DNA from: a virus
Length of the DNA: 54,721 bases
Virus record (IMG/VR): IMGVR_UViG_3300046010_002013
Coordinates: 1 to 54,721 of that record
Reading direction: 5' to 3' (one strand)
A model generated the notes under the pieces. That model worked only from the letters and a program-made list of their open reading frames with translations. It made no database searches and had not been told where the DNA came from. Made by a program: the position numbers and the translations under genes. Positions within the stretch are counted from its first letter, which is position 1. Every line of letters starts with the position of its first letter. Shown here in pieces: positions 19,858 through 54,721 of this stretch.

Positions 19858-20211
19858 TTAGTCGTCCGCTGTTTCATCATTAAAATTACCACTATTAAAC
19901 ATTTCCCAGTGCTGAGGTACATATTGAAACGAATTACGATCCCAACTCAACACATTAATCGTATCATCTAACTCAGTTATAATCGACATGCAAACGCCGC
20001 AAAGCGTAGGATCGCCGATCATCAATAAATAATCTCCTGCTCTCCAGTCTTTCAAAACTCTACGAGCTTTAGAAATCATATTAGGAGTATTGTACGGTTT
20101 CTTCGGGTTTCCGAATACGGCTCTAAGTACTCCGTATCTTTTAGCGTCTGATAGATCTTTGTTGTTATCAACTTGAACTACGAACACTGTTTTTTGATTT
20201 GTATCATTCAT
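19858..20211 (-). CDS. Hypothetical protein between polymerase and Sak4-like gene
   Basis: The product has 117 residues. Its start overlaps the polymerase 3' end by 8 bp. The sequence is soluble and mixed alpha/beta (KTVFVVQVDNNKDLSDAKRYG; RAGDYLLMIGDPTLCGVCMSIITELDDTINVLSWD), with an acidic C-terminus. The DYLLMIGDP segment looks like a core strand. No family is recognised. Its location suggests a replication or recombination accessory role. Confidence 0.72.
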   Translation of the reverse strand: MNDTNQKTVFVVQVDNNKDLSDAKRYGVLRAVFGNPKKPYNTPNMISKARRVLKDWRAGDYLLMIGDPTLCGVCMSIITELDDTINVLSWDRNSFQYVPQHWEMFNSGNFNDETADD

Positions 20212-22039
20212 TTTTACGTTTCCTAGTTTTCTTAGGTGGAGGAGCTATTAATTGTAATTGCTCTGCTGTTAAATAATTTGAACAACCCACAGCCACCGCT
20301 ATTTTTATCGCCTCTTTAACATACCATTCATAATCTAAATCCTCAGGATGTTTAATTTTATCAAGTAACGTCATACAAGCCTTTGCACCTTCTGTTTTAG
20401 GCACTTTATTACCGTTTGACGCGTATTTTATCGGTTCGTTATCCGTATCTGTAGATTGATACCAACGTACCACTTTACCTAGGTAAACACCGTTTTGCTG
20501 CCCGCCGCCGGTCACGTTACGAGCACTGATGAAATCAGTGAACGGCGCGTTATAAATAGTAGACTCAAAAGATGACCCGTGAGCTAACCATTGACCTACA
20601 GCGTCCGCTGAAACTTGAGCTGTCGGGTTTTTTCTAAGTGATAAGGATGCGTAAATACCTTTAACTTTCAACTGTCTATTTTGCTTGATCGCTATGTAAT
20701 TATTAACGTCTTTCATAGCTAAAGCTCGATAGTAAGTGTACTCAAAGTTAAACTTAGAAATTTTACTAAATTCATCTACTATTTTTTCTACTAACGTTTT
20801 CTGATCTTTTTTAAAGAAGATAGCAATACCGTCAGTATTAGCAGAAAGCGTGACAATTTCTGCTGTTTCAAGCCACTCAATCAACATGAGCAGTGTAAAT
20901 TGCCCTGTCAATGTTACTGCTAGCATCAAATCAGGAGAGTACAACACTGAGTGTTTACTAGCTAGTTTACCGAACGTACCGTTTAACGAAATTTTAAGAG
21001 TAGCGTCCGTCGTTTTATCACCTGATCTTTTAGCTTCAAGACGCTGCTCATAAATTTTACGATACTCATCTACGAACTGTTTACCTAATAACGCAGGGAC
21101 AAATCCGCATTCTAAGATAATACTAGGATAAAAAGAAGCCGCGTCAATGTCACATATGTAATCTTCTCCTGCTATGTGACACACTTTTTTATCGTGAACG
21201 CTATGAACTCCACCTACTCCTAGTTGATAAGAACCCGTACCGAAACTTATAATTTCAGATCCTAAAAACTCAGGTAATTTAACATGACCGGTCACTGGGT
21301 TCATTTCAAAAACATGACTCGCTGTTTTATCTAAAAGCTGTTGAAGTTTAAAAGTTTTAAATTTCAAAAACGAAGGCGGTGTATATTGTATCGTTTCTGG
21401 TATTTTATTCTTAGTATACTTCAAACCCATACTAGTCACGTACGCAGCTTCTGCCATTTGAGCGTCAGATTTACTACGCATATCTACTTTGTACCTACGA
21501 CTCATTTCAACTCTAAGCAACACTTCACTTTCAAGTTGTTTGAGTAATTCTTCAGTCGTGTCAACGTCATTGTGACAATATTCTAATATCTCTGTTTCTT
21601 GATCTTCAGTTATCATGTCAGTATGAGCTATCGGCATGTCTTGTAACTTAGGCATGTGCATTCTTGCGCCATACGCTTTCAAACCGACAAAAGAAGGTGA
21701 CACTTCTATCAAATCTATATTATCTCCCATGACGTCAAATAAATCAAATTTACGCATAGCTTCCCAGTATCTCAAACGATTATTGATCACATCGTCAGCT
21801 ATGCGTTTTATTTCAATTTCAGATCTACCCGCACAAAAGGCAGCTACAATAATGTTATCAAATGATCGACTGTTAAAACCGACTAACGTCTCAGCATTTG
21901 AGTTTATAAATGATTTTAATTTTTCGGGAGCGCCTGTTTCGTGACGCCATAAATCAAACCATTCCCCAGTTTCTATGTTTTTAGCGCAAAACAGAGTCCG
22001 GTTGGGTAACGTCTCCGTATCAAACGCCCACGTACTCAT
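20204..22039 (-). CDS. Family B DNA polymerase with 3'-5' exonuclease
   Basis: The product has 611 residues from the ATG at 22039, chosen because it overlaps the DUF3310 stop (ATGA); the longer frame to 22063 adds only eight residues inside that gene. The exonuclease motifs are FDTET (D7, E9), VGFNSRSFDN (N56, D61) and YCHNDVD (Y154, D158). The polymerase motifs are A: DAASFYPSII (D299); B: KISLNGTFG (K349, N353, with Phe for the usual Tyr); and C: SANTDGI (N401-T-D403-G). In motif C the usual first Asp is Asn, but the second Asp, the main metal ligand, is kept. At 611 residues it is compact, and the C-terminus is basic (KKTRKRKNE). It is the replicative polymerase and may have to copy modified templates. 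Confidence 0.92.
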   Translation of the reverse strand: MSTWAFDTETLPNRTLFCAKNIETGEWFDLWRHETGAPEKLKSFINSNAETLVGFNSRSFDNIIVAAFCAGRSEIEIKRIADDVINNRLRYWEAMRKFDLFDVMGDNIDLIEVSPSFVGLKAYGARMHMPKLQDMPIAHTDMITEDQETEILEYCHNDVDTTEELLKQLESEVLLRVEMSRRYKVDMRSKSDAQMAEAAYVTSMGLKYTKNKIPETIQYTPPSFLKFKTFKLQQLLDKTASHVFEMNPVTGHVKLPEFLGSEIISFGTGSYQLGVGGVHSVHDKKVCHIAGEDYICDIDAASFYPSIILECGFVPALLGKQFVDEYRKIYEQRLEAKRSGDKTTDATLKISLNGTFGKLASKHSVLYSPDLMLAVTLTGQFTLLMLIEWLETAEIVTLSANTDGIAIFFKKDQKTLVEKIVDEFSKISKFNFEYTYYRALAMKDVNNYIAIKQNRQLKVKGIYASLSLRKNPTAQVSADAVGQWLAHGSSFESTIYNAPFTDFISARNVTGGGQQNGVYLGKVVRWYQSTDTDNEPIKYASNGNKVPKTEGAKACMTLLDKIKHPEDLDYEWYVKEAIKIAVAVGCSNYLTAEQLQLIAPPPKKTRKRKNE

Positions 22040-22299
22040 CGGTCTTGATCCACGTATCCGCACATATCTACTAACTCATTTTCAACGCGATTTGTTTCTA
22101 TTTCGATGAGTTTTTCAAGATAGTGTATCGCTTTGTTTAAATCTTGAACAGGATTGCCTTTCAAATAACAACGCTCAATATACTTCGTTGCGCAACCCTG
22201 AAAATAATTTAAATTAAGTCGATTAACACGATCCCAATGCTCTTCTCCGCCTCGTTTGTAATGCGTACCGCCGATTTGTTTTTGATTAGCAGCACTCAT
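22036..22299 (-). CDS. DUF3310 family protein
   Basis: The product has 87 residues and carries the DUF3310 signature: QIGGTHYKRGGEEHWDRVNRLNLNYFQGCATKYIERCYLKG, then LNKAIHYLEKLIEIE. It overlaps the HD gene by 4 bp upstream and the polymerase start downstream, so the three are coupled. In other phages DUF3310 proteins sit in nucleotide-metabolism regions, and their biochemical role is not established. It might bind nucleotides, but this is inference. Confidence 0.88.
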   Translation of the reverse strand: MSAANQKQIGGTHYKRGGEEHWDRVNRLNLNYFQGCATKYIERCYLKGNPVQDLNKAIHYLEKLIEIETNRVENELVDMCGYVDQDR

Positions 22300-22784
22300 G
22301 CTCCGTACTCCTTAATTAAGTTAAAAATCTGCCGTTCTCTACCGTCTAATGACATTTCTTCAGCATAGCTAATGTATCGGTCAAATATAGAGCGCATACG
22401 TTTATTACCTAGTGAAAGTTCACGTGCGCAAAACAAAGCGCCTTGAGCTATATCAGACAATTTTAAAACACGTTTGTCTTCAGCTGACAATTTAGGCATA
22501 TAAATACCGACATTACTCATGAGACGTTCTTCTAACTCATCAACTCTTCCTCCGATACCGAACTCTCTTTTTGCAGGAGAAGGTATGTCACCGGTTTGAT
22601 GCTCTGCAAGGTCATGACAAAGTGCCGCAAATAAAAGGTCACGATCAGCGTCTGGTTTGAAAATCAAACAAAGCATAGCCACGCCGTGTGAATGATGACC
22701 GACAGTTTCAGAAATTAAAGTAGTGACGGTGTGATAACGCTTTACTTCAGCACCTGCGATGATAAAATCTAGTGTTTCTTTCAT
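22296..22784 (-). CDS. HD-domain 5'-deoxynucleotidase (YfbR-like)
   Basis: The product has 162 residues. The HD metal site is visible as HHSHGVA (H33), LCHDLAEHQTGD (H57, D58, E61, D66) followed by PSPAKRE, and a later KLSDIAQGALF aspartate. The spacing is that of YfbR-type enzymes, which remove phosphate from deoxynucleoside monophosphates. It has its own upstream promoter. Next to a thymidylate-synthase-family gene and a hypermodification cassette, it could remove dTMP so that 5-hydroxymethyl-dUMP enters DNA. That substrate is inference; family members act on several dNMPs. Confidence 0.84.
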   Translation of the reverse strand: MKETLDFIIAGAEVKRYHTVTTLISETVGHHSHGVAMLCLIFKPDADRDLLFAALCHDLAEHQTGDIPSPAKREFGIGGRVDELEERLMSNVGIYMPKLSAEDKRVLKLSDIAQGALFCARELSLGNKRMRSIFDRYISYAEEMSLDGRERQIFNLIKEYGA

Positions 22785-22845: not shown

Positions 22846-23898
22846 TTATTTTCTATCATATGTCGAACTCAAAATAGAATTTACTTTATTCATTTCAACG
22901 CTGTTTTCTAATATACGTTGTTTTTTATCTCGACGATCTATCCACTCAAAAGCAGCACGTCTCCAATCATCTGCTTGTATCTTTGCCGCGTAGCATTTAC
23001 CGTCTCCCACGCCTGTTTTTCTCATTTTACTGATCATAGCTAACGGATGAGCAACTTGCCAGAAAAATGGGTTTGCATACCGAATACGCTCATTAAACGG
23101 GTCTTGACAAAACAGTTCACACTCAAATAAAAACAATTTGTATTCACTATTGAGCAGTATCGGCTTCGGTCTGACGACACCGGTAAGGTAATAGTCATAT
23201 TCTTTTGCGTTCGGCGGTACAGATAAATAATTACCGATGTCGTAAAGCTCAGTGTAAAGGTGTAAATTGTTAGACATTTGACGATAAACACCGACATGCA
23301 TACTCAAAGCAGCTGCTACAAACTCTTGAAGAAAGCTGAAATGAACAGCATTAGCACCATAAGCTCCCCACCAAATGTCGTTACTACGGTTGAAAACCGT
23401 CATATTTAATCTGTTATTGTGGATATCAAATACGATTTGAGTGTTACACGCTTTGTCTTTTGTCTTTTTGTGTAAATCGTCTGAGTCCCACATTTGAATA
23501 ACGGCTTGACGACTGTTGGGTTCACGACGTAGCAACTTTATCACTTCATCAATTTGATCGAATCCAAAGTGTTTACGCCATCGATACCCATAAGCAGCGT
23601 TGAACACTTTTGTGTCATCAGAAAAATCAGCCATTCTTTTATTAAATTGCTGTAAAAATGAAACATCATTACGACCGGCAAGCATCCATATCGACTCCAT
23701 CAAATGGAATATAGGGTTGGCGTCTCTTTTCTTGTCAAATAAAACGCGCTCACAAGGATAACGATACGTCGTCAACACGGTTTCAGGAAACACTAACGCC
23801 GGTCCGTTACGAGTGTCTTCCGGTTTTAAATTAAGCGTTTTGAGATTCCAAAATATCTCACTAAATGCTTGATTAACATTACGAACGTTAATTTCCAT
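22846..23898 (-). CDS. Thymidylate-synthase-family enzyme, likely dUMP hydroxymethylase
   Basis: The product has 350 residues. Thymidylate-synthase features are a catalytic-cysteine region DKACNTQIVF (C151), the phosphate-binding SRQAVIQMW (R130), and RSNDIWWGAYGANAVHFSFLQE (171-192). The Asn near position 183 probably matches the pyrimidine-binding Asn of the family, which favours dUMP over dCMP. The RSND-x3-G-x-Y-G-A-N variant and the neighbours suggest the branch that transfers a hydroxymethyl group to make 5-hmdUMP rather than dTMP. It is the last gene of the hypermodification cassette. A plain phage thymidylate synthase remains possible; enzyme assays or DNA mass spectrometry would decide. 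Confidence 0.8.
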   Translation of the reverse strand: MEINVRNVNQAFSEIFWNLKTLNLKPEDTRNGPALVFPETVLTTYRYPCERVLFDKKRDANPIFHLMESIWMLAGRNDVSFLQQFNKRMADFSDDTKVFNAAYGYRWRKHFGFDQIDEVIKLLRREPNSRQAVIQMWDSDDLHKKTKDKACNTQIVFDIHNNRLNMTVFNRSNDIWWGAYGANAVHFSFLQEFVAAALSMHVGVYRQMSNNLHLYTELYDIGNYLSVPPNAKEYDYYLTGVVRPKPILLNSEYKLFLFECELFCQDPFNERIRYANPFFWQVAHPLAMISKMRKTGVGDGKCYAAKIQADDWRRAAFEWIDRRDKKQRILENSVEMNKVNSILSSTYDRK

Positions 23899-23900
23899 AA

Positions 23901-24818
23901 TTAAAACTCCGTTTCTGGTCTGTATTGTGTTTTTGGTTTACCTTCATTTAAAACTGTTCGACAGTATTTACTGTACTCACACATGCAGTTTTGAACATCG
24001 TGAAGCGTCATGTCATCTATTTCTAAAACATCAAGTATTAATTTAAATATTTGACGTAGTTTTAGATTAAACTCTTCTTGAGTCCAACCAGCGGTCGGTG
24101 CTCTGTTAAACAAATAATTTAAACCGCGTGAACTTCCAGGACCTATCGGAGCGTACGTAAATAGATCATCAGCAAAACATAAATGCTTCGTTGAGTATGT
24201 CAAATCAGCAGCAACTTGACCGGCTATAAATGTACTTATACCGAAGCATCTACTCATAGCGTTCACAAACCGTTCAATCGTAAGACCGTCACCTTGCAGT
24301 GTTTTTTGAATATCATCTGCTTTTAAAACAGCGTCACCGAGTATATATTTTGCCACGGCTCTTGACTTATTGCCTCCTGGCTCCATCTTTGTCGGATAAA
24401 GCATGTACGCGCCGGAATACACTTTGCTGCCGGTTTCTTTTAAAGACTCTAATACTGACTCAAAAAGCTCTGCATCAAACTCAGAAGGCGAACACGGAAT
24501 AACGCTATTTTCCCAAAGAGCCGCGATAGTAGGTGGCCAGTTAATAAGTCTAACGATCAGAAGGGTAAACCACAAATCTGCTCGATCTTCATAAACATCA
24601 ATTATGTTTTCTATGATCCACTTAGAAACACGGTCATCACTACGATGAATGTTAGTAAATTTATATTTATCTAATACGACGTCAGCAGTCCAAGGATGTT
24701 CATACCCGTTTTCACGGGCGATACGTATAGCTTCTCTTTCCCAGATAAAATACAACAACCCTTCAAGAGATCGAACAGTTTCCGGCGTTGGGCGCGGGTA
24801 TGGGCATTCATCTATCAT
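23901..24818 (-). CDS. 5-hmdU DNA kinase helical-domain protein (DNA base hypermodification)
   Basis: The product has 305 residues. The N-terminal region matches the helical (DNA-glycosylase-like) domain of 5-hydroxymethyl-dU DNA kinases: LLYFIWEREAIRIARENG, HPWTADVVLDKYKFTNIH and RSDDRVSKWIIENII. Later conserved parts include AAD near 'IAGQVAADLTYS' and YAPIGPGSSRGLNYL. The family was defined computationally as alpha-glutamyl/putrescinyl-thymine pyrophosphorylase-related and later placed in thymidine hypermodification. It overlaps the P-loop kinase gene by 11 bp. I infer that this protein binds DNA and presents the flipped 5-hmdU to the kinase. In some phages the two parts are one protein; here they are separate genes. 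Confidence 0.8.
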   Translation of the reverse strand: MIDECPYPRPTPETVRSLEGLLYFIWEREAIRIARENGYEHPWTADVVLDKYKFTNIHRSDDRVSKWIIENIIDVYEDRADLWFTLLIVRLINWPPTIAALWENSVIPCSPSEFDAELFESVLESLKETGSKVYSGAYMLYPTKMEPGGNKSRAVAKYILGDAVLKADDIQKTLQGDGLTIERFVNAMSRCFGISTFIAGQVAADLTYSTKHLCFADDLFTYAPIGPGSSRGLNYLFNRAPTAGWTQEEFNLKLRQIFKLILDVLEIDDMTLHDVQNCMCEYSKYCRTVLNEGKPKTQYRPETEF

Positions 24819-25392
24819 TTTCGTATTCTCTAATTATTTTAAGTAAAAGTTCATGAGTGTTTGTGTGATCTATAAGACGCACATCATACCCACCGGCGTT
24901 TTTTAAATTTTTATAACAGTTAACGACAGAGTCAAATTTATCAATCAAATTTTTAGGGTTAAACTCTTTGTCATTACCGGCAGCTAATCGTCTAGATCTA
25001 ACGCGCTCAATACAAAGTTCCTTAGGGGTGTCTAAAAAAGCGTAAACGTCACACTCAGTAGGATGAATCGTTTGTGTCACTTGACCGGCTAAGCCACTCG
25101 CAGAAACTAAAGCACCTTCGTAAATCACATGACCGTACTGATGCGCTCTCATTATTCTATCTGCTATTTCTGCTTGCGTGTTTATAGAGTCAGTACCGCC
25201 GCAAACATTGTCGTATTTACCGATAACGTAAAGTGGAACAAATATACCTGCTTCTGATAAATCTAATCTATAACCGGCTATTTTGTTATTTGTTTTTAAC
25301 ACTTCACTCGGATACGTGTTTATAAACTGACGCACTGCTGTCGTTTTACCAGAACCGAAAGTGCCAGCAACTCGCAATATAATTTGCTTCAT
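24808..25392 (-). CDS. P-loop kinase, putative 5-hmdU DNA kinase
   Basis: The product has 194 residues. Walker A is GTFGSGKTT (residues 10-18). A strand ending VIYEGALVSASGL (about 88-100) resembles the substrate lid/Walker B region, and CIERVRSRRLAAGN (about 127-140) is an arginine-rich lid. The fold is that of nucleoside/nucleotide kinases. Overlaps with the helical-domain gene and with the amino acid:DNA transferase gene indicate a shared pathway: phosphorylation of 5-hydroxymethyl-dU within DNA, activating it for attack by an amino acid. The biochemical role comes from the family context of thymidine hypermodification; the sequence alone shows only a P-loop kinase. Confidence 0.78.
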   Translation of the reverse strand: MKQIILRVAGTFGSGKTTAVRQFINTYPSEVLKTNNKIAGYRLDLSEAGIFVPLYVIGKYDNVCGGTDSINTQAEIADRIMRAHQYGHVIYEGALVSASGLAGQVTQTIHPTECDVYAFLDTPKELCIERVRSRRLAAGNDKEFNPKNLIDKFDSVVNCYKNLKNAGGYDVRLIDHTNTHELLLKIIREYENDR

Positions 25393-26393
25393 ATAAAATA
25401 CTCCGCTCTGTAAGGAACGCCGGTCTTCGTGAAAAACGCAGCTTTCTGATTTAAATTTAATTTGTCTTTACTACATTCTGAGCGTAACCACTCTGGTAAA
25501 TGATCTTCTCTTATCTTTTTGAAAATAGAAGTACAAGAACTCAAACTACGTGAGTCATACCATTCAATACGATCCTGAGCCATGTCGGCGTACACTCCTG
25601 GATATCTTCTACCGTAAAAATGATTTTTAAACGTGCAGAGATTAGACTCTAAAGTAAACCTACCGACATTTTTAACAGTAGGATTAGCTTCGCTAAAATC
25701 ATTTATAAAGTCATCGGCTTCAGATGCTAACCAACTGCACATCTTATTGAAATTTTCATAATTACCGTCATGACTATTAGGTTGGCGTTTGTCCCAGACT
25801 AAATGATCTTGACCGGTCAACAATAGCATACCATTACGATGTGACTTACTACCAGATTTATCTTCAAATAACAGGTCATCACAGTCAGTACCGAAACCGT
25901 TTAAATACACGTACTCTAAATAACTGAAAGAAGAAAGCCTTCCGAAGCTCTTATAACCAGTACTAACCAGTTTCCAAAGTTCTGCATACGATTTACCGGT
26001 CAGCATTTTCTCTTGAGTACCGTGTTCTTCAACGAGCTTCGCATAAGACTTTATAGCGGCTAAAGTGTCTTTCTTTTGATACCGGCGATCAGTGTCAAAT
26101 TGAAGGTCATCCCAGTTCTCATTAAAGAACTTTTCAAAGCTCATCAAACGAGATCCCGCAGGAGGAACATTAGGAAGCATTCCCCAAAGCCGTAATGAAG
26201 TTATAGGGTTTTGTGTCATACCGTTCAAAAAAGCAAACCAGAGCTTTTGTTCATTATCCCATTTAAATATACGCGCTAACTCAGGCATGTAAAGATAAAC
26301 GAGTCCAGGCATGACATCATTGTCTAAATTCATTTTATAGAGCTTGTCAAAATACATCATACGATTTTCAGGTAGTCTGAAATCATCCATCAC
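25389..26393 (-). CDS. Amino acid:DNA transferase-type protein (aGPT-Pplase family)
   Basis: The product has 334 residues (a second Met at residue 2 is an equal start). The N-terminal pattern LPENRMMYFDKLYKMNLDND, PGLVYLYMPELARIFKWD and EQKLWFAFLNGMTQNPITS is the hallmark I associate with the amino acid:DNA transferase family, first named alpha-glutamyl/putrescinyl thymine pyrophosphorylase. Later charged and Trp-rich parts include YLEYVYLNGFGTDCDDLLFED and HLVWDKRQPNSHDGNYENFN. In characterised phages this enzyme displaces the phosphate on phospho-5-hmdU in DNA with an amino acid. Four- to eleven-base overlaps with both neighbours show operon coupling. The amino acid used here cannot be told from sequence. 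Confidence 0.77.
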   Translation of the reverse strand: MMDDFRLPENRMMYFDKLYKMNLDNDVMPGLVYLYMPELARIFKWDNEQKLWFAFLNGMTQNPITSLRLWGMLPNVPPAGSRLMSFEKFFNENWDDLQFDTDRRYQKKDTLAAIKSYAKLVEEHGTQEKMLTGKSYAELWKLVSTGYKSFGRLSSFSYLEYVYLNGFGTDCDDLLFEDKSGSKSHRNGMLLLTGQDHLVWDKRQPNSHDGNYENFNKMCSWLASEADDFINDFSEANPTVKNVGRFTLESNLCTFKNHFYGRRYPGVYADMAQDRIEWYDSRSLSSCTSIFKKIREDHLPEWLRSECSKDKLNLNQKAAFFTKTGVPYRAEYFI

Positions 26394-26577
26394 ATTCTCC
26401 TATTTCAATTAAACCTTCAGGAGTGTTTTCTCCTGATAAAAACCAAATACCGTGATCACCTTTAAAAAACCAAATAGGAACTCCCATAACTTCAATTTGT
26501 TTGAACCAAACCACGTCATCAGCATCTGACGAGTTTCCTTTGTAATGTGTAGCGCTCATAGGAACTTCAGATTTCAT
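26383..26577 (-). CDS. Small hypothetical protein inside the hypermodification operon
   Basis: The product has 64 residues. It is tryptophan-rich and beta-like (DVVWFKQIEVMGVPIWFFKGDHGIWFLSG) with an acidic C-terminus (PEGLIEIGECDG). It overlaps the transferase start by 11 bp and sits 2 bp after the PLP-enzyme stop. I know no family for it. Strict co-location suggests an accessory or regulatory subunit of the modification enzymes, which is inference only. Confidence 0.7.
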   Translation of the reverse strand: MKSEVPMSATHYKGNSSDADDVVWFKQIEVMGVPIWFFKGDHGIWFLSGENTPEGLIEIGECDG

Positions 26578-26579
26578 AT

Positions 26580-27533
26580 TTATTTTCTCGTATAAAAAGG
26601 TTCAATAACTTTCATTTGAGGAGCAGAACCGACAATCCAAAAACCTAAGTTACCGCTGTCAGTTATCTGGTTAGTACCTTTAAGCCAGCGCCACATTTTT
26701 GCTTCATACGTCGGATGAAAATTGATACCGTCAAATGATTCACCGTTAAAATGATCGCTATACTTACTGTAACCGGTGTCATGAAGACTGTAATGATCCC
26801 ATTTGAACGGCAGCTTGTTTAGGTCAACACCAATGTAGTTCAACCGCTCTCTCATCCAGTCACGCTTGTCAGGACCGATACCGACTGTAAATAACTCTTG
26901 AACGTTTTTAGGGTCTCTGATCAACCCTATCATGATACTGGTGAGTGAGTTACAAGACCCTGCGGGTACAATCAACTTCATCACTTCATCAGGTATATTA
27001 GAAATCTGATGAGCGCCTACTTCATGAAATTTACGTACATCTTCTTCTGGGTATCGATCATGAGGAACAGTTATACCGTACTCAACGACTAGCGAACTGT
27101 CCTTAGTTAAATCAGCAACTTTACGCTGCAAGATTGGGTTGTACGGACCAGAAGCGTATTCAAACTCAGCTCCGAAACCGTGCGCTATACGCGGGTTATC
27201 GTGTCTCAACACGGTGTCCGGTTTACTGTAAACGATTTGACGAGCAGGTAAATCATAATGTGAACCTACGATCGCACTCATACTCAACTGAGGAGACTGT
27301 ATGCTTGCTCCGGTCACGATGTGATTTTTACCAGTTTTAAATCTATTAACGTACCAGATCAACTGTCGCATTTTACTACCGTTCGGACCGCCGTAACCGA
27401 GCGGCGCAAAGTAGTCTTCACGTTTGAACCAAACGCCGTTATGATTTTCCCACGGCGTGTAATCAGCTAAATGTTCTTCCCAGCGTACTTTAGTTCTATC
27501 AAGTGAATGAACATCAAAAATTGAACCACTCAT
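26580..27533 (-). CDS. Fold-type II PLP-dependent enzyme (ACC deaminase/TrpB-like)
   Basis: The product has 317 residues from the ATG at 27533, which has a GGGGA ribosome site and overlaps the upstream stop (ATGA); a TTG 33 bp earlier is less likely. The PLP lysine is probably K54 in GPNGSKMRQL, after WFKREDYFAPLGYGG, the layout of ACC deaminase and D-cysteine desulfhydrase. The segment VPAGSCNSLTSI (about residue 205) is a plausible phosphate-binding loop. Within this cassette I infer that it acts on the amino acid attached to thymidine in DNA, for example decarboxylating a seryl group. The reaction is not shown by sequence. Confidence 0.8.
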   Translation of the reverse strand: MSGSIFDVHSLDRTKVRWEEHLADYTPWENHNGVWFKREDYFAPLGYGGPNGSKMRQLIWYVNRFKTGKNHIVTGASIQSPQLSMSAIVGSHYDLPARQIVYSKPDTVLRHDNPRIAHGFGAEFEYASGPYNPILQRKVADLTKDSSLVVEYGITVPHDRYPEEDVRKFHEVGAHQISNIPDEVMKLIVPAGSCNSLTSIMIGLIRDPKNVQELFTVGIGPDKRDWMRERLNYIGVDLNKLPFKWDHYSLHDTGYSKYSDHFNGESFDGINFHPTYEAKMWRWLKGTNQITDSGNLGFWIVGSAPQMKVIEPFYTRK

Positions 27534-27670
27534 ATCATTCCCCAACCAATCATAATAACTCCCCAAGCTAACCTAGCCAGCAACCCAACGAACCAGAAAA
27601 ACATCAAGAACACCGCAACTATTCTCACACCGTCCCAAAGATCTTTAAACCACTCAAGTATTTCTTTCAT
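27530..27670 (-). CDS. Small membrane protein upstream of the PLP enzyme
   Basis: The product has 46 residues. A charged start (MKEILEWFKDLWDGVR) leads into a single hydrophobic segment rich in Trp and Phe (IVAVFLMFFWFVGLLARLAW). Both ends are coupled by ATGA overlaps, upstream with the 79-residue membrane protein and downstream with the PLP-enzyme start, which supports it being real. No family is recognised. A role in the membrane, perhaps lysis timing or exclusion, is possible. Confidence 0.68.
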   Translation of the reverse strand: MKEILEWFKDLWDGVRIVAVFLMFFWFVGLLARLAWGVIMIGWGMI

Positions 27671-54227: not shown

Positions 54228-54721
54228 ATGGCTCAAACAGGCTATACACCAATACAACTTTACCGCACGACCACTGCCGCTGCTGCTCCTTTGGCTGCTA
54301 ATTTAAACGCGGGTGAGCTTGCTATCAACATTAATGATGCTGATATGGCTCTTTATGCTGAAAATCAATCTGGCGTTGTTAAACGATTGATGAACAATCC
54401 TGCTGGTTTAAAATATCCTACGGTGGACGGAACAAATGGGCAAGTTATAAAAACTGACGGAGCTGGTAATCTTTCTTGGACTGCTGGTGCATCTGGATCA
54501 TATTTGCCGTTGTCTGGCGGCACGATGACGGGTGCGATTACGTTTTCGGCTGGTCAATTTGGAACAAATGTTAATACGTTTTTATCTACGCCATCTAGTG
54601 CAAATTTAGCTGCTGCGTTAACGGATGAAACTGGAAGTGGTGCTGCAGTTTTTGCTACCTCCCCCACTCTTGTAACTCCCGTGCTTGGCACACCTTCTAG
54701 CGGTACGCTGTCATCTTGTAC
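54228..54721 (+). CDS. Tail fibre protein, N-terminal part (continues at 1)
   Basis: The gene starts at 54228 and runs off the window; it continues at 1 and ends at 479 once the ends are joined, giving about 281 residues. The N-terminus TGYTPIQLYRTTTAAAAPLAANLNAGELAININD is a typical phage fibre start, followed by VIKTDGAGNLSWTAG and LPLSGGTMTGAI. Bases 54595-54721 are the overlap already present at the start. It belongs to the fibre cluster with 51717-53873 and the DUF1566 tip. Confidence 0.87.
   Translation, partial: MAQTGYTPIQLYRTTTAAAAPLAANLNAGELAININDADMALYAENQSGVVKRLMNNPAGLKYPTVDGTNGQVIKTDGAGNLSWTAGASGSYLPLSGGTMTGAITFSAGQFGTNVNTFLSTPSSANLAAALTDETGSGAAVFATSPTLVTPVLGTPSSGTLSSC
54595..54721. 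repeat. Terminal overlap of the contig, copy 2
   Basis: Identical to bases 1-127; see that entry. It should be removed once when the sequence is circularised. Confidence 0.93.

Follow-up and report, generated by a model that had tools for sequence, protein, structure and literature searches.

The window, meaning the whole 54,721-nucleotide stretch of phage DNA analyzed here, contains seven leftward open reading frames (ORFs) between positions 22846 and 27670, all on the minus strand. Read leftward from about 27670, these are a 46 amino acid ORF, a PLP enzyme, a 64 amino acid ORF, an amino acid:DNA transferase (ADDT), a P-loop kinase, an HMUDK_hel protein, and a thymidylate-synthase-family (TS) enzyme. 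All seven are present as the initial annotation described them, and Pfam and PHROGs searches placed the same five that it had recognized in families. These five core genes mostly overlap or abut one another. The overlaps it listed are there (11 bp between the HMUDK_hel and P-loop genes, 4 bp between the P-loop and ADDT genes, and 11 bp between ADDT and the 64 amino acid ORF), and the one correction concerns the start of the PLP gene.

Genes of the cassette

The TS-family gene (22846..23898, minus strand) probably encodes a dUMP hydroxymethylase for 5-hmdUMP synthesis. The protein matches phrog_5131 (E=1e-101) and PF00303 (82 bits), is 44-45% identical to M6 gp58 and PaMx11 gp51, and retains Cys151. 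Where the CMP hydroxymethylase MilA has Asp, the window protein has Asn183; this Asn is conserved in M6, ViI, and PaMx11 and is the residue expected in a dUMP-type enzyme. That the enzyme hydroxymethylates and does not methylate is suggested by its gene company.

The HMUDK_hel gene (formerly aGPT-Pplase1; 23901..24818, minus strand) encodes a helix-rich protein that matches PF18723 (E=8e-44), is 34% identical to M6 gp55, and keeps all family-invariant residues. Its AF2 model is confident (pLDDT 92.5). The best PDB matches to the model are 8z2m/8z2n (the PaMx11 glycinyltransferase), followed by OGG1 and MagIII, with weak E-values of at least 0.15; they hint at, and do not prove, an HhH-glycosylase/ADDT-like fold that flips bases. 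A search of bacterial genome contigs recovered no relative. We predict that this protein is probably the partner of the kinase that recognizes 5-hmdU in DNA.

The P-loop gene (24808..25392, minus strand), with the Walker A motif GTFGSGKT, is predicted to encode a 5-hmdU DNA kinase of the HMUDK1 type. It matches PF18748 (HMUDK_HMUD1; 31.7 bits, cut-off 27) and phrog_800 (E=6e-18), to which M6 gp54 and ViI gp67 also belong. PF18748 misses the kinases of phage phiW-14 and contig L065 and is therefore too narrow, so a nine-member kinase alignment was used before a kinase was called undetected. Homologs across the clade (including those of L027, L035, and L062) are either about 61-100% or 41-49% identical to the window protein. 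The kinase falls into two types and the neighboring genes do not, which suggests gene replacement in place.

The ADDT (25389..26393, minus strand) is of the ViI (gp247) type. It matches PF18724 (63.9 bits, cut-off 26.2, E=2e-17) and phrog_3271 (E=2e-63). The profile searches thus put both this protein and HMUDK_hel (PF18723) in hypermodification families, as the initial annotation had supposed. A family profile search of the PDB led from the ADDT to the solved transferases 8z2m and 25qc; single-protein PDB sequence searches gave no useful match for the ADDT, HMUDK_hel, the PLP enzyme, or the kinase. In the ADDT tree the window protein lies on the ViI side, on a long branch (support 98/94) and apart from the M6/PaMx11/Pam3 glycine clade, and the window ADDT forms its own clade beside ViI and a mycobacteriophage protein; given the long branches, this fine placement is unsure. 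The identity to ViI gp247 is about 27%, so use of the same amino acid as in ViI is not proven.

The PLP gene (26580..27533, minus strand; the ORF was listed to 27566) encodes a fold-type-II enzyme of the ViI gp226 type, with a match to phrog_3650 (E=1e-77) and none in Pfam. The ATG at 27533 (317 amino acids) is a likelier start codon than the TTG at 27566, because relatives begin at Met12 of the window protein and this ATG and the stop codon of the 46 amino acid ORF overlap exactly as ATGA. The Schiff-base Lys65 in NGSK and the PAGS-NS binding loop are invariant and are shared with ViI. The AF2 model (pLDDT 74.8) matches D-cysteine desulfhydrase and ACC deaminase. Enzymes of fold type II catalyze many reactions.

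The two small ORFs appear not to belong to the core. The 64 amino acid ORF (26383..26577, minus strand) has no Pfam or PHROGs family match and was matched only in L010, L011/L015, and L012/L016. The hydrophobic 46 amino acid ORF (27530..27670, minus strand), for which the closest relatives alone gave matches, is probably not core.

Conservation and genome context

A scan of IMG/VR with the window PLP enzyme returned 79 loci. All five core genes occur together in 65 related IMG/VR loci and are collinear in 64 of these; comparison of the window with its relatives gives dN/dS values of 0.02-0.14 across the five genes, which are all under strong purifying selection. With this many loci, this collinearity, and these low ratios, the arrangement is far beyond chance. 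The five families, their shared order, and the purifying selection together argue for a genuine operon for thymidine hypermodification, as initially proposed, and it is highly likely on these grounds that the locus carries out thymidine hypermodification of some kind.

Downstream of the cassette, an HD-domain gene, a DUF3310 gene, and a DNA polymerase form a conserved module. The HD-domain protein (22296..22784, minus strand; PF12917 YfbR-like, E=5e-9) resembles 5′-deoxynucleotidases, is probably a nucleotide-pool enzyme, and is syntenic with M6 gp59 and PaMx11 gp52. The polymerase (20204..22063, minus strand) ends the module. It is most similar to polymerases that carry a B-family annotation, some of them from CAjan-like phages, and not to the M6 polymerase; the module therefore adjoins unrelated polymerases in different phages.

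Positions 1-127 are repeated exactly at 54595-54721. Circular assembly with a k-mer of 127 would be expected to leave a terminal repeat of this length. The genome is therefore probably complete with a circular map, and gene absences carry weight. No match to radical SAM enzymes (PF04055) was found in the window by a search that was positive in all 14 control genomes, in agreement with the absence claimed initially. A search for HMUD2 (ViI gp243, PF18747) recovered it from ViI and Vibrio K356 but from neither the window nor any of ten relatives, which are 50-102 kb long.

Comparison with characterized phages

The cassette is a hybrid, judged by gene order and family membership: it resembles M6 in its order, TS, kinase, and HMUDK_hel, and the ADDT and PLP enzyme belong to the ViI gp247 and gp226 families. 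It is syntenic with the clusters of M6, YuA, PaMx11, and Pam3, including the HD gene and polymerase beyond. The Pseudomonas phage M6/YuA cluster, which makes 5-NedU, shares with the window the gene order, the separate P-loop and HMUDK_hel genes, the TS, the HD gene, and the polymerase. The M6 ADDT and PLP enzyme fall in phrog_6364 and phrog_7093, whereas those of the window fall in phrog_3271 and phrog_3650. M6 also has gp53, annotated as a photolyase, which we take to be a radical SAM enzyme. Neither a radical SAM enzyme nor a glycine-type ADDT, the two marks of the M6-type route to 5-NedU, is found in the window.

Salmonella phage ViI makes 5-NeOmdU with gp67, gp160, gp226, gp243, and gp247. 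The window shares its ADDT and PLP families, and gp67 and gp160 are the counterparts of the window P-loop kinase and HMUDK_hel. In ViI these genes are dispersed around the genome, unlike those of the window, and the ViI PLP enzyme has 424 amino acids compared with about 317. The ViI-type pairing of ADDT and PLP enzyme is thus present in the window, but HMUD2 is not. Pseudomonas phage PaMx11 has the P-loop gene (gp49), HMUDK_hel (gp50), TS, and HD gene in the same order as the window; it differs in its glycine-type ADDT (gp46; PDB 8z2m/8z2n) and in an FAD-dependent oxidoreductase (gp47) that replaces the PLP enzyme.

Variation among related loci

About 11 loci encode a 245-256 amino acid protein upstream of the ADDT (for example L131:4235-4972, L084:10960-11727, and L080:3461-4219); in loci that have both PLP and ADDT, its gene lies between them. 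It has no Pfam or PHROG family and is a candidate extra tailoring enzyme, with an EPFGG...DFP pattern similar to motifs of SAM methyltransferases. A sister group (L131 and L134-L142) has the ViI-type ADDT, kinase, HMUDK_hel, and TS and no PLP gene, with 43 kb searched in one case. In L136 a 2OG-Fe(II) oxygenase gene lies between those for ADDT and kinase. The kinase directly adjoins TS in L049 (5265-5861) and L065 (8739-9338), both of which are fragments. A run at L080:347-5675 comprises a ParB-like gene, a TET/JBP oxygenase, a second short ADDT, PLP, a 252 amino acid protein of no assigned family, ADDT, and a P-loop protein. This run has the TET/JBP oxygenase and no TS, so thymine would be oxidized in the DNA itself.

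Predicted pathway and product

We predict, with a probability of roughly 85%, that the five-gene locus is a post-replicative hypermodification operon with the following four steps. The TS-family enzyme would convert dUMP to 5-hmdUMP, the HD nucleotidase would adjust the pool, and the phage polymerase would build 5-hmdU into DNA. The P-loop kinase would then convert 5-hmdU in DNA to 5-phosphomethyl-dU, helped by HMUDK_hel, which may bind or flip the base. The ViI-type ADDT would swap the phosphate for an amino acid, most likely serine. Finally, the PLP enzyme would trim the amino acid, most likely by decarboxylation, to give 5-(2-aminoethoxy)methyl-dU (5-NeOmdU) or a closely related product. 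Thymines modified in this way would shield virion DNA from host nucleases, and the phage very probably places an amino-acid-derived group on the thymines of its own DNA and so resists them. Base-modification levels and nuclease resistance are documented for the DNA of M6, ViI, and phiW-14 (PMC6449724, PMC11721090). The initial annotation went further and had 5-hmdU replace T. Full replacement is not inferable from the locus; in ViI DNA, 5-NeOmdU takes the place of about 43% of T, and roughly half of the T is left unmodified (PMC6449724).

5-NeOmdU itself is the best single guess for the product, at about even odds. An aminoethoxymethyl-type product had been proposed for the lack of a radical SAM enzyme. 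The ViI-type ADDT and PLP enzyme make this product plausible, but the lack of a radical SAM enzyme is not a sufficient reason, since other routes without one exist (the FAD enzyme of PaMx11) and the window lacks HMUD2. With HMUD2 absent, the route in the window cannot be the full ViI set; in ViI, this second kinase is reported to be required for the product.

Somewhat short of even odds, the same pathway with one kinase may lead elsewhere: the ADDT would attach an amino acid other than serine or form another linkage, and the PLP enzyme would act by elimination, racemization, or transamination to give an undescribed thymidine derivative. This would fit the absence of HMUD2 from the window and ten relatives, the separate ADDT clade beside ViI and the mycobacteriophage protein, the PLP model, whose nearest structures are not decarboxylases, and the sister loci that have the same ADDT type and no PLP gene. 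Against it, active-site residues are common to the window PLP enzyme and ViI gp226, and ViI-like phages whose product is known to be 5-NeOmdU have ADDT and PLP enzyme together (PMC6449724, PMC11721090).

The role of HMUDK_hel

The initial annotation drew attention to a kinase split into two genes. Separate genes are the usual arrangement, seen in M6 (gp54, PF18748, and gp55, PF18723), YuA (gp13/gp14), PaMx11 (gp49/gp50), ViI (gp67/gp160), and phiW-14. We rejected the split as a novelty, as it also occurs in Pam3, RHph_I72, and all IMG/VR relatives examined.

The accompanying picture, in which the P-loop protein and HMUDK_hel are halves of one enzyme and neither is active alone, appears doubtful. 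It would account for the 636 amino acid P-loop and HMUDK_hel fusion of Bacillus phage SBSphiC and for the adjacent, overlapping positions of the two genes in almost all loci. That fusion is the only one found, with no fused ORF among the HMUDK_hel loci of IMG/VR. Several arrangements speak against two halves: the genes lie far apart in phiW-14 and nACB2, and in ViI gp67 (PF18748) and the PF18723 protein of orf00160 are about 50 kb apart. L049 and L065, both fragment contigs, carry kinase, ADDT, PLP, and TS, and HMUDK_hel is missing from its place between the kinase and TS genes. TS, glycosyltransferases, and HMUDK_hel are encoded by Brevibacterium phage LuckyBarnes and Microbacterium phage Zayuliv, in whose whole records neither the kinase alignment nor ADDT found a match.

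The HMUDK_hel proteins of LuckyBarnes and Zayuliv retain nearly all family-conserved columns (F54, N56, R59, D62, D205, GPG226-228, and CE-x2-KY). Among the loci compared, HMUDK_hel (PF18723) lies beside TS and glycosyltransferases (TAGT / phrog_842) at L159:3914-4768, L158:3388-4254, and L147:7932-8918, and no 5-hmdU kinase or ADDT was detected on these three contigs. The family-conserved residues are largely intact in L158 and L159. In L147, HMUDK_hel and TS adjoin glycosyltransferase and sulfotransferase genes, and its 36.9 kb gave no kinase match. A 2022 study of pelagiphages placed aG/PT-PPlase1 near a glucosyltransferase (PMC9599517).

From its distribution, the HMUDK_hel family is not kinase-specific. 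Since HMUDK_hel with its key residues adjoins base glycosyltransferases in phages with no detected kinase, viewing it as half of a kinase may be mistaken. We tentatively suggest that HMUDK_hel is a free-standing protein with an ADDT/HhH-glycosylase-like fold that handles 5-hmdU DNA, by recognizing or flipping the base, for differing writers, and that the window clade is a one-kinase variant of the ViI route, possibly with an undescribed product. If so, its partners would be P-loop kinases here and base glycosyltransferases in LuckyBarnes, Zayuliv, and L147.

It is very improbable that the operon is an inactive remnant or serves only dTMP supply, given the low dN/dS of all core genes, the order kept in 64 loci, and the intact catalytic motifs.

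Significance

The general kind of system and the shuffling of its parts in viral metagenomes are already known; Lee and colleagues reportedly described shuffled hypermodification genes there in 2021/22. The permutation found here appears to be new. Details of the hypermodification pathways belong to the core biochemistry (Lee 2018, Lee 2021/22, Iyer 2013, Wen 2024), and one of these works may already draw this exact permutation. Dozens of uncultured phages keep the ViI-type tailoring enzymes, ADDT and PLP enzyme, on an M6-type chassis without HMUD2. This clade makes both the need for HMUD2 in a ViI-type product and the role of HMUDK_hel testable with at most five proteins, and parts of the cassette could yield new DNA-labeling enzymes.
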